From positions 1,984,001 to 2,048,000 of the forward strand of contig NZ_CP026949.1 in the NCBI RefSeq assembly GCF_003065425.1: DNA of 64,000 nucleotides. The letters run 5' to 3'. Shown piece by piece: positions 5,479-41,896 of this stretch. A program made the position numbers and the translations under genes. This stretch comes from Mycetocola zhujimingii. GTDB lineage: Bacteria > Actinomycetota > Actinomycetes > Actinomycetales > Microbacteriaceae. Every line of letters begins with the position of its first letter. Position 1 is the first letter of the stretch. The notes beneath the pieces were generated by a model, which was not told where the DNA came from, did no database searches, and saw nothing but the letters and a program-made list of their open reading frames with translations.

Positions 5479-6417
5479 TTAGAAGCCGGCTTGAAGGACG
5501 AAGATGCCAGGGAAGATCGCGAAGAGAATCGACAGCGGGAGGATGAGGAAGACGAGGGGCACAAGCATGGCCACCTCTTTCTTCCCCGCCACCTCGAGCA
5601 GCGCTCTTTTCGCCTCGTCTCGAGCGTCTTGCGCCTGGGCACGGAGCACCTCGGCGAGGGGCGATCCGCGTTCGAGCGCAGCGACGATCTGCTCAATGCA
5701 GCGTGTGAGCGAGGGGACGTCGGCGCGGCGTGAGACATCCGTCAGGGCGGTGGCCAGCGGAATCCCGGTATTGACCGCTGTGACGACCGCACGAAACTCC
5801 TGGCTCAGTTCGCCCGAGCCGATTGCACCCATCCGCCGGAGTGCATCGAGGATCCCCTCCCCCGCTGACAGGCTCAAACTCAGGAACTCGAGAACTGTCG
5901 GCAACTCAGCTGAGATACGGGCAACCCGGGCAGTCGCCTGCCGAGTGAGAATGGTGTCACGGAGGACGAGCCCGACGATGCCGCACGCTGGTGGAAGCGC
6001 GACAACGAGCGGAAGAGGCAGGAGCTGGTTGCTGCCTCCGATGCCGGCGCAGATCACACCGACACCGGTCCCCGCAAGAAACCACAGCACCTGTTCCATC
6101 CGGAACCGCTGCACATCCCCGTCGGAGCCGGCACGGTCGAGGTTGCGCCGCACGGTGGCGTTACCCCCGAGCGCCGCAGTGAGAACCGCCGTAAGGCGAT
6201 GCACGACAGGACTGAACAACCGCCCGAGTATCGGCAGCGGGTCGGTAAACCGCTTCTCGCTGTATTTGCGCGCCCCCTCGGATACATCGACGAGATACGG
6301 GGCAACCCGGTCCGCCAGCGTTGGACCGCCGAACCTCGGCAGCATCGCCACGATCGACCAGAGCCCAAGTCCGAGTGTCACACCGAACACGAGTCCCCAC
6401 GCCACAGCCGTGGTCAC
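5479..6417 (-). CDS. tadC: Tad pilus platform protein TadC (type II secretion F domain)
   Basis: A 312-residue inner-membrane protein. Hydrophobic helices near residues 5-25 and 115-150 flank a cytoplasmic T2SF domain (LPTVLEFLSLSLSAGEGILDAL ... IPLATALTDVSRRADVPSL ... RCIEQIVAALERGSPLAEVLRAQAQDAR), and two closing helices end in LVPLVFLILPLSILFAIFPGIF. TadB and TadC form the membrane platform driven by the TadA ATPase. The GTG at 6417 overlaps the tadB stop by 4 bp and is preferred to upstream in-frame starts inside tadB. Confidence 0.9.
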   Translation of the reverse strand: MTTAVAWGLVFGVTLGLGLWSIVAMLPRFGGPTLADRVAPYLVDVSEGARKYSEKRFTDPLPILGRLFSPVVHRLTAVLTAALGGNATVRRNLDRAGSDGDVQRFRMEQVLWFLAGTGVGVICAGIGGSNQLLPLPLVVALPPACGIVGLVLRDTILTRQATARVARISAELPTVLEFLSLSLSAGEGILDALRRMGAIGSGELSQEFRAVVTAVNTGIPLATALTDVSRRADVPSLTRCIEQIVAALERGSPLAEVLRAQAQDARDEAKRALLEVAGKKEVAMLVPLVFLILPLSILFAIFPGIFVLQAGF

Positions 6418-7277
6418 GTGAACCACCGTCTCTCCTGCGGGAGCCGACCAAGCGCCAGCATCAACCGATATGCCACCACCGACACCGCCGCTCCAACCAC
6501 GATGAGCACAGACCCGCCCGCTGAGTTGTACGCGAGCGATGCCTCCGGCCTGGTCGACAGCAAAAGCAGGATCAACCACGGCGCAGCGACACCGAGCTTG
6601 GCTGCACTCTTGATCCAGGACTGCCGGGCTTCCACCTCGGAGCGGATCGCGTTGTCTGACCTGAGATAGCTGGAGAGGCTCCGCAGGACCGTGGTGAGGT
6701 CAGCTCCGCCAACCTCTCGAGCCATCCGCAGCGTCTCGATGATGCGATCAGGAACCGGATCAGCCAGTGCATCCTTCAAACGATCGAGGCTGCCACCGAA
6801 CGATCCCGTGCTGCGGTAGTCGCGCTCGAACGAAACGAACTCTCCACGCAGCGCTTCCGGCCCTGTGTGTGCGAGGGACGCGACGGCATCGGGCAGCGCG
6901 AGTCCTGACCTGACGGAACCAATCAGGTGATCGACGACGTCCGGCCAGAGTGCACGGTGCGCCGCACGTTTCACGCGCGCGCGCCACCGCACGAGCAGCA
7001 CAGGAATCGCGCCACCGAGAACCGCGGCGCTCACGGCGAGGGCGACAACGCCAGTGACGGCGAACGCGACGGCGGCGAACAAGACACCGGTGAGCACGGA
7101 GAGGGCCAGGAAAACACCGACGGGAACTGCGCCGAACCCGGCTGCAGACAGCGTGGTCGTGAGTCTCCCTGTCCGCCGTAGCCGGGGCTCTGGCCGGGGT
7201 GCTCGCGGGGGAAAGAGCCACGGCGATGCGGTCAGCACCACGCCGGCGGCGAGCAGGCAACCCAGCAGCAGCGTCAC
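6414..7277 (-). CDS. tadB: Tad pilus platform protein TadB (type II secretion F domain)
   Basis: A 287-residue protein with an N-terminal helix, two further helices (GVFLALSVLTGVLFAAVAF; VALAVSAAVLGGAIPVLLV), and a T2SF cytoplasmic domain (LWPDVVDHLIGSVRSGLALPDAVA ... TLRMAREVGGADLTTVLRSL) followed by C-terminal helices. It pairs with TadC in the pilus platform. The GTG at 7277 overlaps the tadA stop by 4 bp (GTGA) and tadC overlaps its own stop, so tadA-tadB-tadC are translated as one coupled unit. Confidence 0.9.
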   Translation of the reverse strand: MTLLLGCLLAAGVVLTASPWLFPPRAPRPEPRLRRTGRLTTTLSAAGFGAVPVGVFLALSVLTGVLFAAVAFAVTGVVALAVSAAVLGGAIPVLLVRWRARVKRAAHRALWPDVVDHLIGSVRSGLALPDAVASLAHTGPEALRGEFVSFERDYRSTGSFGGSLDRLKDALADPVPDRIIETLRMAREVGGADLTTVLRSLSSYLRSDNAIRSEVEARQSWIKSAAKLGVAAPWLILLLLSTRPEASLAYNSAGGSVLIVVGAAVSVVAYRLMLALGRLPQERRWFT

Positions 7278-8506
7278 CCGAGTCCCCTCCGCAGGATGGG
7301 CAGAGGATCGATACCGGCCGCCTCGAATTTTCCGGTCCGTGTCGGGTAACTCCCGCTCGGCTCGAGAAGTCCGTCACGCACCGCGAACAACCGGCTTGTC
7401 TCAATTACGGGGCCGGTGACGACACCCGTGACAGCGAGGATCTCATTGACGCGTCGGAGCCCACGTCGGTCAATATCGAGGTGCACCACCAGGTCGATGC
7501 AGGAGGCCACCGTGGGCTGGACGAAAGACGAATCGATGTTGCGGCCGGCGAGGAGCGGAAGGGTGGCCAGCTTGACCAGGGCGTCTCGCCCCGAATTGGC
7601 GTGAATCGAGCACATCCCTGGCAGTCCGCTGTTGAGCGCGATGAGCAGGTCAAGGCTCTCCGCCTCACGCACCTCACCGACGATGAGTCGGTCGGGCCGC
7701 ATTCGGAGCGCCTCCTTGATGAGCCGCCGCAGGGTGATCTCGCCGGAGCCCTCGAGGTTTGCCTGCCGACACTGCATCGCAACGACATCCTGTGCGGACA
7801 AATCAAGCTCGAATGTTTCCTCGACGGTGACGATGCGCTCCCGCGCCGGCGCGGTTCCGAGCAGAGCGCCGAGGAGCGTGGTCTTTCCTGCCTGGGTCGC
7901 CCCCGACACCAGGATGTTCAGGCCCGCGCCCACCGACGCCCGCAGGAATTCCGCCGCCTGCGCACTCAGCGACCCGAGGGCCACCAGCTGCGCCAGGTCA
8001 CGGACGCTGCGCCGGAACTTCCGGATATTGACGGACATGTGTTTTCGAGTCACGTCGGGGATAACGACGTGCAGGCGAGAGCCGTCAGGGAGTGATGCGT
8101 CGACGAACGGAGAACTGAGGTCGACGCGGCGGCCCGTGGATTGCAGCATCCGTTCCACGAGGTCCCGCACCCCAGCCTCGGTGAGAACCGTGTTCGTCAG
8201 TTCAGAGACACCATCGCGTGCGATGAAGATCCTGGTCGGTGAGTTGATCCAGATCTCCTCGACGCTCGGGTCGTCGAGGTACTCCTGGAGCGGCCCGAGG
8301 CCGGTGAGTGAGGCCACAACCTCACGCTCTGTCGCAGCCTCGTCGTCGATGAGCGGATGGGCTCCGGCCAGCGCTCTCTCGCTGTATCGCCGCACCTCGT
8401 CACGAACATAAGTCTGGGCCAGTCCTGTCGACGTCGAGAGATCAGCACCATCTCGACGCACGCGCTCACGAACACGGTCCGTGATGATCTGCGCCGCCGA
8501 CGACAT
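7274..8506 (-). CDS. tadA: Tad/CpaF pilus assembly ATPase TadA
   Basis: A 410-residue hexameric secretion ATPase of the CpaF/TadA family that powers Flp pilus assembly. It has an N-terminal domain (IITDRVRERVRRDGAD ... DPSVEEIWINSPTRIFIARDG), Walker A GATQAGKTTLL at about residues 212-222, the Asp-box region VTVEETFELDL, Walker B DRLIVGEVREAES and the His box GMCSIHANSGRDALVKL. It heads the pilus operon. The ATG at 8506 has no Shine-Dalgarno; a CAGAAT hexamer at 8513-8518 (reverse strand) lies 6 nt upstream, suggesting leaderless translation, and a CTGTGGATAACT motif sits 36 nt upstream. No tadZ lies between it and the tRNA. Confidence 0.93.
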   Translation of the reverse strand: MSSAAQIITDRVRERVRRDGADLSTSTGLAQTYVRDEVRRYSERALAGAHPLIDDEAATEREVVASLTGLGPLQEYLDDPSVEEIWINSPTRIFIARDGVSELTNTVLTEAGVRDLVERMLQSTGRRVDLSSPFVDASLPDGSRLHVVIPDVTRKHMSVNIRKFRRSVRDLAQLVALGSLSAQAAEFLRASVGAGLNILVSGATQAGKTTLLGALLGTAPARERIVTVEETFELDLSAQDVVAMQCRQANLEGSGEITLRRLIKEALRMRPDRLIVGEVREAESLDLLIALNSGLPGMCSIHANSGRDALVKLATLPLLAGRNIDSSFVQPTVASCIDLVVHLDIDRRGLRRVNEILAVTGVVTGPVIETSRLFAVRDGLLEPSGSYPTRTGKFEAAGIDPLPILRRGLG

Positions 8507-8542
8507 GGACGAATTCTGCACGAAGCGGAAAGCTCCCGTGTG

Positions 8543-8554
8543 AGTTATCCACAG
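8543..8554 (-). promoter_or_regulatory. Shared 12-mer CTGTGGATAACT upstream of tadA (DnaA-box-like)
   Basis: On the coding strand of tadA the sequence reads CTGTGGATAACT, ending 36 nt before the ATG and 24 nt before the putative -10 hexamer. It contains a perfect DnaA-box 9-mer (TTATCCACA on the plus strand, 8545-8553). The identical 12-mer occurs at the same distance and orientation before the lipoprotein gene (30078-30089) and the E1/ThiF-like gene (40987-40998). Confidence 0.6.
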
Positions 8555-28676: not shown

Positions 28677-29492
28677 TCAGCAGCCTGGACCCCGCGGATT
28701 TCTGGTGCACTCTTTGTCTACGAGGACCGTCCTGGCGTCGCCCGCGAGTGCCGCGATGGTGACCGCGGGTGACGAAAGAGTGCCATCGATCGTTATCCAG
28801 GATGCGCCAGCCGCTCGGTATTCCACGGCGAACGCGACGGTCACCGTGACGGCGTAAACGCCCGTGTCCGCATAAATGTGGCTGGTCGCGGTTGGTGAGA
28901 ACTCGGGCAGCCCGAGCTCGGCCCACGTCGCGCCCGGAACTGTGGTCCGGGAGCGCGAACCATCTCCCCACGACCAGTGATAGCTCACCGGTGTGAAGCG
29001 AACCTCGATAGGTACGTCGAAGAGAACACCCGGTTGAACATGACGGCTCGTATCCGCGATGAAATTTGCCGGAAGGCCGGTTACGAGCCAGCCGTCAGGC
29101 TCCATCGTGAGCGTCGGAGCGGTCGGGCTGAAGCGCGCGAGGTCGCTCAGCGTCACTACATCGGGAAGACAGAGCGTGCCCGAGACACACTGCAGGCTGC
29201 GGTCGATTCCTCCCGGCCCGTCGGAACCATCCGCGTTGCCATTGTCACCAGTTCCGCCATCGTCGTCGCCGCCGTCGTCGCCGCCGTTCTGACCGCCGCC
29301 ACCCCCTCCGCCGCCGTTGTCCTGATCACCACGGATGATGGCCTCGCCGTTCTCGAGACTGCCGCCGGTGCAGAATCCATTCAGCTTGTCCACCACGTCG
29401 CAATTAGCGGCCTCCGCGACCTCTGCCCCGGGCATAAGTGCCACTGCTGCTGCGAACACCAGCGCAGTCAACAGGCGACGTCTTCGGTCCAC
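28677..29492 (-). CDS. Secreted PKD-domain protein with Gly/Asp-rich linker
   Basis: A 271-residue exported protein. The signal peptide (RRRRLLTALVFAAAVALMPG) ends near AEAAN. A Gly/Asp/Asn-rich linker of about 45 residues follows, then a segment with paired cysteines (LQCVSGTLCLPD), then a PKD-like domain with the WSWGDGS and SHIYADTGVYAVTVTV motifs. Such domains mediate surface adhesion or protein contacts. The GTG at 29492 lies inside the lipoprotein gene (25-bp overlap), so the two are made together. The last residues contain one Cys pair (ECTRNPRGPGC). No enzyme motif is seen. Confidence 0.75.
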   Translation of the reverse strand: MDRRRRLLTALVFAAAVALMPGAEVAEAANCDVVDKLNGFCTGGSLENGEAIIRGDQDNGGGGGGGGQNGGDDGGDDDGGTGDNGNADGSDGPGGIDRSLQCVSGTLCLPDVVTLSDLARFSPTAPTLTMEPDGWLVTGLPANFIADTSRHVQPGVLFDVPIEVRFTPVSYHWSWGDGSRSRTTVPGATWAELGLPEFSPTATSHIYADTGVYAVTVTVAFAVEYRAAGASWITIDGTLSSPAVTIAALAGDARTVLVDKECTRNPRGPGC

Positions 29493-30040
29493 GATTCGAC
29501 TTTCGATACAAGTAGCTTTCTCGGATCCTCATTCGCTGAAGTCAGCGTGACCGAGAGCGGGAGAACACTCGAACGCTCCACAGGCGTTACGTCTGAACCA
29601 TCGGCTGCAACGATTCTCACTTGGGAGACATCGCGACAGAGGTTCAATATGACCTCGGCTCGCTCTCCCTCCTGCTTGAAGCGATCGATACTGGCGGGGG
29701 TGAACGTTGAGATGCCTGTTGTGTGCCATCCGTTCTCTTGAAGAACTCCAGGTACGCCCAAGTCCATGAGGTGCGCATCCGTCACGTAGGGAGCCACGGA
29801 CGACATGTCCTTCCCGCCGAGCGAGTTGCTCAGGTCGTAGGCCGCAGAGTACTTCGCGTACGTGTCCGTCGCTGCAGCGAGCGCCTCGTCCTCGCTCGCG
29901 AAGATGGCCGTCGGCGTTGGAGTGGGTTGTGCGGACGGCTGCGCACAGGCGAAGAGGGACACCGCCCCGCCAGCGATCGCGAGACCGGCCACGACAGCGC
30001 GCAACAGCGTCGGCATCCGGTGTCGCGCGCCGCGTTCCAT
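29468..30040 (-). CDS. Lipoprotein, function unknown
   Basis: A 190-residue lipoprotein. The signal peptide LLRAVVAGLAIAGGAVSLFAC ends in a lipobox (LFA|C) at about residue 32. A Pro/Thr linker is followed by ASEDEALAAATDTYAKYSAAYDL, a conserved opening of actinobacterial surface lipoproteins with an NTF2-like fold. The ATG is probably leaderless (TAGCGT at 30047-30052 on the reverse strand, 6-nt gap). The DnaA-box-like CTGTGGATAACT lies 37 nt upstream, exactly as before tadA. It overlaps the downstream PKD gene. Confidence 0.75.
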   Translation of the reverse strand: MERGARHRMPTLLRAVVAGLAIAGGAVSLFACAQPSAQPTPTPTAIFASEDEALAAATDTYAKYSAAYDLSNSLGGKDMSSVAPYVTDAHLMDLGVPGVLQENGWHTTGISTFTPASIDRFKQEGERAEVILNLCRDVSQVRIVAADGSDVTPVERSSVLPLSVTLTSANEDPRKLLVSKVESWTEDVAC

Positions 30041-30046
30041 GCAGTC

Positions 30047-30052
30047 ACGCTA
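30047..30052 (-). promoter_or_regulatory. -10 element for leaderless lipoprotein gene
   Basis: Reverse-strand TAGCGT, 6 nt before the ATG at 30040 and 25 nt after the CTGTGGATAACT motif. Confidence 0.5.
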
Positions 30053-30077: not shown

Positions 30078-30089
30078 AGTTATCCACAG
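30078..30089 (-). promoter_or_regulatory. Shared 12-mer CTGTGGATAACT upstream of the lipoprotein/PKD pair
   Basis: On the coding strand of the lipoprotein gene the 12-mer ends 37 nt before the ATG. The plus strand reads AGTTATCCACAG and contains a perfect TTATCCACA at 30080-30088. It is also 94 bp upstream of the divergent aminotransferase, which may share it. Confidence 0.6.
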
Positions 30090-40986: not shown

Positions 40987-40998
40987 CTGTGGATAACT
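40987..40998 (+). promoter_or_regulatory. Shared 12-mer CTGTGGATAACT upstream of the E1/ThiF-like gene
   Basis: The 12-mer ends 37 nt before the ATG at 41036 and 24 nt before the CAAGAT hexamer. It has the same sequence, strand relation and spacing as the copies before tadA and the lipoprotein gene. It contains TGTGGATAA, the complement of a perfect DnaA box. Confidence 0.6.
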
Positions 40999-41035
40999 TC
41001 CCGGAGCTCGTACCGGCTCGGGCAAGATGGCGTGC

Positions 41036-41896
41036 ATGGTGCTCAGACTCGACCCGCGATATCCGCTCGTCTGGCGCGACCCGCTGTCTCTCCAGATCGG
41101 CGCAGAGACACCCGTCGTCACCCTCGAGCAGGTGAGCGGACCGGTCGAACGGCTGATCGGTGCCCTGATGGCCGGCATCAGCCGGGCGGAACTCGACAGG
41201 CTGGCTGCCCGACTCGGCATCGAGGAGAACGAGGTGTCCCGTCTGGTCAGCCAGGTCGGGCCCGCGCTTCTTCCCGAACCTGGCCCACCGCCTGACGCGA
41301 GCTGGATCGTCGAGGGATCGGGACCGACGGCCGCACGACTTGCGTCCCTGCTGACGGCGACCGGGATTCCTGGCCGTGAACCCGACGACCCGCGAAGCCC
41401 CGGTCTCGCCATCATCATCGCCCACCACGTCATCGACCCGCGCCGCTATGTCCGCTGGCTGAGTCGCGACATCCCCCACCTCGCCCTCGTCTACACGGAT
41501 ACCGGCGTGCGCGTCGGCCCCCTCGTCGAGCCAGGAACGGGGCCGTGCCTGCACTGTCTCGCCAGAGACACGGCGGAACGCGATCCGGCATGGCCGGCCA
41601 TCGCCTCGCAACTGCTCGGACAGGAAACGTCGTCCGAGCGCGAGCCCCTCATCAGCGTCGTTGCCGGTCTCGCCGCCCGGGTCAGCGAGTCACGGCTGAT
41701 CGGCGGAGTGAACGACCTCGCGTCGGCGACGCTCAGCTTTGACGCGCGCTCGCAGTCGGGGCGCCGCGCCTGGCACCGGCAACACCCGCACTGCGGATGC
41801 CGATCTCTGTCAGGAATCGAGACCGCTCACGTGGCTGTGAGCCACGACCGGGCTGTTCTCCCCACGACAGAAAGAGCCGCGAGCGGGCTCGGGTGA
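41036..41896 (+). CDS. E1/ThiF-like (TOMM-cyclodehydratase-type) zinc protein
   Basis: A 286-residue protein with the layout of actinobacterial E1-like proteins. A winged-helix-like N-terminal region (LDRLAARLGIEENEVSRLVSQVG) is followed by a Rossmann segment (SWIVEGSGPTAARLASLL ... LAIIIAHHV), then GPCLHCLARDTAERDPAW and C-terminal HPHCGCRSL. The CxxC and CxC would form the structural zinc site of the family. No ATP-binding GxGxxG is clear, so adenylation is doubtful; it may only bind a partner peptide. The ATG at 41036 has a CAAGAT hexamer 7 nt upstream (leaderless type). The last 164 bp overlap the end of the convergent uvrD-like gene. Confidence 0.75.
   Translation: MVLRLDPRYPLVWRDPLSLQIGAETPVVTLEQVSGPVERLIGALMAGISRAELDRLAARLGIEENEVSRLVSQVGPALLPEPGPPPDASWIVEGSGPTAARLASLLTATGIPGREPDDPRSPGLAIIIAHHVIDPRRYVRWLSRDIPHLALVYTDTGVRVGPLVEPGTGPCLHCLARDTAERDPAWPAIASQLLGQETSSEREPLISVVAGLAARVSESRLIGGVNDLASATLSFDARSQSGRRAWHRQHPHCGCRSLSGIETAHVAVSHDRAVLPTTERAASGLG

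Follow-up and report, generated by a model that had tools for sequence, protein, structure and literature searches.

The stretch analysed here, 64,000 nucleotides (nt) of the Mycetocola zhujimingii genome (contig NZ_CP026949.1, positions 1,984,001 to 2,048,000) and called the window below, carries three exact copies of a 12-mer, CTGTGGATAACT, at a nearly constant distance before three unlinked genes: the ATPase gene tadA of a Tad pilus, a predicted lipoprotein gene that heads a pair with a PKD-domain gene, and a ThiF-like gene. The 12-mer, its likely role as part of a promoter element and the protein that might read it are our subject. The features at the three loci are the following.

8543..8554, minus strand: 12-mer site before tadA, exact match; in related genomes 48-58 nt before the aligned tadA start
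8537..8538, minus strand: CG at offset 16-17 of the tadA site
8513..8518, minus strand: -10-like hexamer CAGAAT of tadA, read from the sequence
7274..8506, minus strand: tadA, ATPase gene, leaderless-like, with its ATG 6 nt after the -10 hexamer (Pfam T2SSE; TIGR03819 at 272.8 bits, below the cut-off of 373.15)
6414..7277, minus strand: T2SSF-domain gene (Pfam; TadB/C-like) downstream of tadA, likely in the same operon
30078..30089, minus strand: 12-mer site before the lipoprotein gene, exact match; found by pattern in 5/6 genus genomes
30047..30052, minus strand: -10-like hexamer TAGCGT of the lipoprotein gene, read from the sequence
29468..30040, minus strand: lipoprotein P0002, predicted by eye, with no Pfam or NCBIfam match
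28677..29471, minus strand: PKD-domain protein (Pfam PKD), downstream of the lipoprotein gene
40987..40998, plus strand: 12-mer site before the ThiF-like gene, exact match; kept in 25/34 family genomes examined
41023..41028, plus strand: -10-like hexamer CAAGAT of the ThiF-like gene, read from the sequence
41036..41896, plus strand: ThiF-like protein P0003, weak match to TIGR03882 (TOMM precursor leader peptide-binding protein; 34.3 bits, cut-off 36.9); many of its homologs are annotated as cyclodehydratase-domain proteins

A first-pass annotation of the window had reported this repeat, its spacing and the unlikelihood of a chance origin, and all three hold on recount. No fourth copy occurs in the window even with two mismatches allowed. 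The gap between site and start codon is 36, 37 and 37 nt (ATGs at 8506, 30040 and 41036), the -10-like hexamers begin 24, 25 and 24 nt past the 12-mer, and the ATG comes 6, 6 and 7 nt later. Under a first-order Markov model about 0.001 exact copies are expected per 64 kb, and the probability of at least three is about 1e-10. Shuffled versions of the window, scored with up to two mismatches, contain 1.32 copies on average and 17 of 100 reach three, so it is exactness and position that make the repeat striking. A chance repeat is ruled out by the Markov expectation together with two results given below, a pattern scan set against its reversed pattern and the background rates in the family.

The same annotation held that the 12-mer occurs only in promoters, which is true of the window and fails for the genome as a whole. 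Across 3.19 Mb there are seven exact copies, and only four have the -10/ATG geometry. These four precede leaderless-looking genes, the three of the window and, at C1:830286, a putative Hfq-like gene beside a SecA-like gene (the latter named by eye). The geometry is also kept by a copy with one mismatch before a DUF559-type nuclease gene (C1:2516984; Pfam match just under the cut-off) and by one with two mismatches before the prepilin peptidase gene (C1:2120974). The three exact copies that lack it lie in the dnaA-dnaN region, at C1:15229 before a class E sortase gene, and next to rplI, all amid other DnaA-box-like sequences (dnaA, dnaN and rplI named by eye). When up to two mismatches are allowed, 7 of the 92 distinct sites read (104 in total) show the geometry, against a background of 1.5%; the seven include C1:2782840, which was flagged by its geometry as an eighth promoter and rejected, as it leads no convincing gene. 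The enrichment goes against one outcome that the annotation had named as refuting, a motif spread over the genome with no bias towards promoters. A site before nrdH, C1:2218225, lies inside a box cluster and was left out of the count.

A related site, TTGTGGATAACT at C1:831337, precedes an operon for a SAF-type protein (Pfam match below cut-off), a ParA/TadZ-like protein and a histidine kinase. Here a -10-like CACCAT follows 24 nt past the site, and then comes a leader with an AGGAGG-type ribosome site. On its other side lies a divergent HTH_17 gene with a leaderless-looking promoter of its own; in the family loci (L171-L187) that gene often has CGATTAT beside its start codon on the other strand, a leaderless-like promoter facing the shared site.

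Within the genus, six genomes were scanned with the pattern TGTGGATAAC-N24-28-ANNNT-N4-8-ATG, with the reversed pattern as control. The forward pattern gave 32 matches, 4-7 per genome, and the reversed pattern none. Among the 30 translated matches, 29 belong to six gene families, with names assigned partly by eye: tadA 6, prepilin peptidase 5, lipoprotein 5, ThiF-like 5, the Hfq-like gene beside SecA 5 and DUF559-type 3, with 1 other (the two further matches, both in G005, stand outside the 30). Counted by gene, the site is present in 6/6 genus genomes before tadA, before the prepilin peptidase gene, in the SAF/HTH intergenic region and before the ThiF-like gene. Two members that had been predicted for the regulon, the prepilin peptidase gene and tadZ (in the SAF/TadZ operon), thus do carry the site.

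Conservation before orthologous genes, proposed at the outset as a check, extends through the family. Orthologues were sought in 59 genomes and sites scored by matches at 11 positions, with a threshold of at least 9, for which the background is 0.1% in 70 positions and 0.7% in 300. By this score, 20 of the 22 family genomes carrying the main tadA have the site in front of that gene (14 in the main set, 4 that lack the HTH gene, G013 and G026), and G019 and G029 score 8. It lies 48-58 nt upstream of the aligned tadA start in most of them, while G014, G017 and G031 have a longer leader in between. ThiF-like promoters have it in 25 of 34 family genomes, reduced genomes included, and the SAF/TadZ operon in 17 of 17 family loci, all of which contain TGTGGATAA in the SAF/HTH intergenic region. 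Genomes of only 0.9-1.8 Mb retain the site or a close variant, where the score for reduced genomes is the best match over 240-550 nt. In G029 the first piece of tadA has CTGTGGACAGT 49 nt before its ATG; the gene is split there into two pieces about 11 kb apart (C1:1287587-1299607).

Taken together, these sites outline an element made up of CTGTGGATAAC, five bases, in many cases a CG after them, and then a -10-like hexamer usually 35-37 nt from the start of the site, with the ATG usually 6-7 nt past the hexamer. Its statistics are drawn from 68 sites that match at least 9 of 11 positions; the tadA promoters of G013, G014, G017, G019, G026, G029, G031 and G034 stand outside this set. The collected sites hardly vary in TGTGGA and in the A at offset 8. 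A -10-like hexamer with a start codon, 35-37 nt from the start of the site, occurs at 35 of the 38 sites that were collected by gene (tadA 13/14, ThiF-like 16/18, prepilin peptidase 6/6), and in 35/38 the hexamer lies 4-7 nt before the start codon, as expected of leaderless housekeeping-type promoters. The SAF/TadZ operon departs from this arrangement: a start codon is found at that place in only 2 of 17 cases, because the SAF set has leaders.

The core of the element, as the first-pass annotation had pointed out, is a perfect DnaA box, the identical 9-mer TGTGGATAA (TTATCCACA), and DnaA itself was one of the binders it proposed. If DnaA bound a single box per promoter, pilus expression would be coupled to replication or to the level of DnaA. 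The 9-mer equals boxes in the dnaA-dnaN region of the same genome, one of which has TGTGGATAACTTTCTCG in common with the SAF promoter; DnaA is universal, which would match the retention of the site in reduced genomes; and the variation at site positions 7-9 resembles the degeneracy of Streptomyces DnaA boxes, a point that also counts for DnaA. The promoter sites, however, are solitary. None of the 68 has a tandem partner box, compared with 14 of 28 replication-type boxes (P 1.7e-9), although this also means that the partner is missing from the other 14. A CG at offset 16-17, beyond the box, is present at 41 of 68 promoter sites and at 2 of 22 replication-type boxes (P 2e-5), and is thus mostly a promoter feature. 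The replication-type boxes were chosen by hand from dnaA-dnaN, nrdH, rplI and neighbouring clusters, and the sets of 22 and 28 used for the two tests differ in the regions and letters allowed. Escherichia coli DnaA, according to the accessible part of one study, binds almost only pairs of boxes 2-3 bp apart (PMC11317965). The promoter sites differ from DnaA boxes further in their near-fixed distance to the -10 hexamer and in their position before pilus genes, and the target genes are not replication genes. On the solitary sites and the CG we consider DnaA an unlikely binder. DnaA-box-like pairs with a spacing of 3 bp were seen in tandem at L010:9342-9420, L008:1483-1510, L008:11579-11600 and L008:15230-15255, and these places comprise dnaA-dnaN, points near 11.6 and 15.2 kb, and the neighbourhood of rplI, some 0.3 Mb away from the contig's dnaA end.

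The element takes a looser form in other families of the order. Up to 230 nt upstream of tadA, TGTGGA or TCCACA occurs in 19/19 loci and in 4/6 added loci (23/25 together; not found within that distance in G042 and G045), and at most 160 nt from the HTH gene in 17/21 loci (not within that distance in G042, G048, G051 and G064), as compared with 13/282 and 24/351 control windows, respectively, which are GC-rich and mostly coding DNA. In five Micrococcaceae-type loci (L302-L306; Micrococcus and relatives) the tadA promoter has two copies, 23-52 nt from each other and of opposite strand.

A second possible reader is encoded beside the site itself. The HTH_17 protein (excisionase-type, Mlut_14660 family), divergent from the SAF/TadZ operon, might bind the site and control the pilus genes and its own gene. 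The site lies between the two in 17/17 family loci, the core is found at 17/21 loci of other families, and the HTH gene and the main tadA largely travel together: 36 of the 59 genomes have both, 5 have tadA only, 1 has HTH only (a weak match) and 17 have neither. There is also genetic evidence from Micrococcus luteus. In a screen for raised comEA/EC promoter activity, most mutants were changed at Mlut_14660 or its surroundings, and reinsertion of 13-M93 (in the HTH protein) and 13-M1090 (before its gene) reproduced the effect, whereas 13-M89 did not; the same study links Tad genes and transformation genetically, and its Mlut_14660-Mlut_14650/40/30 locus has the same divergent arrangement of HTH_17 gene and SAF/TadZ/histidine-kinase operon (PMC8467076, as far as its accessible text goes). 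We base the homology on the HTH_17 domain, the shared divergent operon and matching residues in a Micrococcus relative, Micrococcus sp. EYE_212 (G061), which stood in for the M. luteus genome among the compared loci and has, by eye count, S27, S46 and R64 in its HTH protein. The idea that the single-nucleotide polymorphism (SNP) 13-M89 falls inside the site was rejected on this genome, where some 120 nt separate the core from the start while the SNP sits at about -44.

The accessible text of the Micrococcus study proposes transcriptional interference and does not mention a shared operator (PMC8467076), while the cis-element described here ties the HTH/SAF locus to tadA and other genes and persists where the HTH gene has been lost. 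Of the HTH-lacking genomes, 12 of 16 have the site at the ThiF-like promoter, much as 12 of 17 HTH-bearing ones do, and 4 of 5 have it at the tadA promoter, the fifth scoring 8/11. The putative DNA-reading helix of the HTH_17 protein, judged by eye, varies among genomes whose SAF site is identical. Because the ThiF-like and tadA promoters keep the site without the HTH gene, its reader is more likely a third, widely kept protein, and we regard the HTH_17 protein as an improbable candidate. Still less probable is direct reading of the element by RNA polymerase, whether with an alternative sigma factor or by way of a WhiB-type protein that partners the housekeeping sigma. The tight spacing between site and -10 hexamer and the location of the CG in the -35 region would fit such a mechanism, but the core, with its end about 37 nt from the ATG, lies farther upstream than a -35 hexamer, it switches strand in other families, and the -10 hexamers look housekeeping-type.

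Our preferred reading takes the 12-mer as the core of a conserved promoter element that likely serves one putative activator as its operator, so that leaderless-looking promoters would be switched on jointly, and from the sequence comparisons we give this a probability of roughly 0.6. The observations behind it are the sequence of the site, its near-fixed spacing, the set of genes that it precedes, its retention across genera and families, and its contrast with tandem DnaA boxes. Provided that transcription begins at the ATG, the site would span about -48 to -37, with the CG at about -32/-31, and the putative activator would overlap or abut a weak -35 region and help the housekeeping polymerase, turning on Tad-pilus and partner genes together. 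Such an activator would be family-wide, given the presence of the site, or of a variant close to it, in genomes of 0.9-1.8 Mb. The proposed regulon in this genome would comprise the tadA operon, the SAF/TadZ/histidine-kinase operon, the prepilin peptidase gene, the lipoprotein/PKD pair, and the ThiF-like, Hfq-like and DUF559-type nuclease genes. We see about an even chance for the more specific form of this proposal, in which a family-wide activator recognises a sequence resembling a DnaA box, placed near -43 of leaderless promoters, with a looser form in other families, and governs a dedicated Tad-pilus regulon together with the Hfq-like, ThiF-like, lipoprotein and nuclease genes.

Several observations weigh against the activator proposal or narrow it. 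The core letters alone are not distinguishable from a DnaA box. Eight of the 76 sites collected were dropped to reach 68, and all eight are ThiF-like promoters; the 68 stem from related genomes and for that reason do not count as independent. The spacing is shared by the 13 lipoprotein, Hfq-like and DUF559 sites, but the search pattern fixed it, so they give no test of it. ThiF-like promoters show no good match in 9 of 34 family genomes, and the ThiF-like site of the window has no CG at offset 16. In some reduced genomes tadA has a leader, and in other families the distance of the core varies and its strand is often opposite, so the strict geometry is a trait of the Microbacteriaceae. As a whole, the interpretation first put forward for the window is partly borne out: the Tad-pilus, lipoprotein and ThiF-like genes have a promoter-linked element in common, by which pilus, surface lipoprotein and E1-like protein may be co-regulated.

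The gene set points to Tad-pilus assembly, with the ATPase, the prepilin peptidase and the TadZ/SAF operon. Competence regulons such as that of ComK in Bacillus likewise have one operator class before pilus and prepilin-peptidase genes. The likeness to ComK-type regulons is incomplete, since the site here is asymmetric and, in this genus where readable, comEA is not included: the prediction that comEA would carry the site is unsupported in the five genus genomes that could be read (G000, G001, G003, G004 and G005; the comEA start in G002 was not readable), where no core lies just upstream. In three Micrococcaceae-type genomes (G060, Micrococcus lylae, G065 and G066; L328, L331 and L332), comEA is preceded at 57-58 nt by TCCACA, on the opposite strand from the tadA-type site, so the element may yet be tied to DNA uptake. 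A different sequence, CTGCACAGG, recurs upstream of comEA in Micrococcus and in this genus, at 6 of 9 readable loci (L326, L327, L328, L335, L336 and L337); the genus copies form part of a terminator-like hairpin, with TTCACAGG at this place in G000 and G005.

Rhodoluna lacicola, which we take to belong to the same family, the Microbacteriaceae, is one relative in which tad expression has been followed. Within 1 h of darkness its putative tad genes go up, as do its other competence genes apart from comEA, whereas those of Aurantimicrobium photophilum gave no coordinated pattern in the same study (PMC8591293, accessible part). One relative thus shows co-regulation of tad genes and another does not. 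M. luteus cannot be transformed without its tad loci, and a 2026 paper on this species states that the upstream signal of competence and its regulatory cascade still await identification (PMC12849477). Our literature search, which worked on titles and abstract openings and was weak for subscription journals, showed no paper describing the element among the hits listed.

Operators of this kind can be mislabelled as DnaA sites when box-matching alone is used, and the present case may serve as a warning. The element connects several uncharacterised conserved genes to the pilus, and, as a defined sequence of about 18 bp with named targets, it would provide a bait for the missing regulator of Tad pili and DNA uptake in high-GC Gram-positives.
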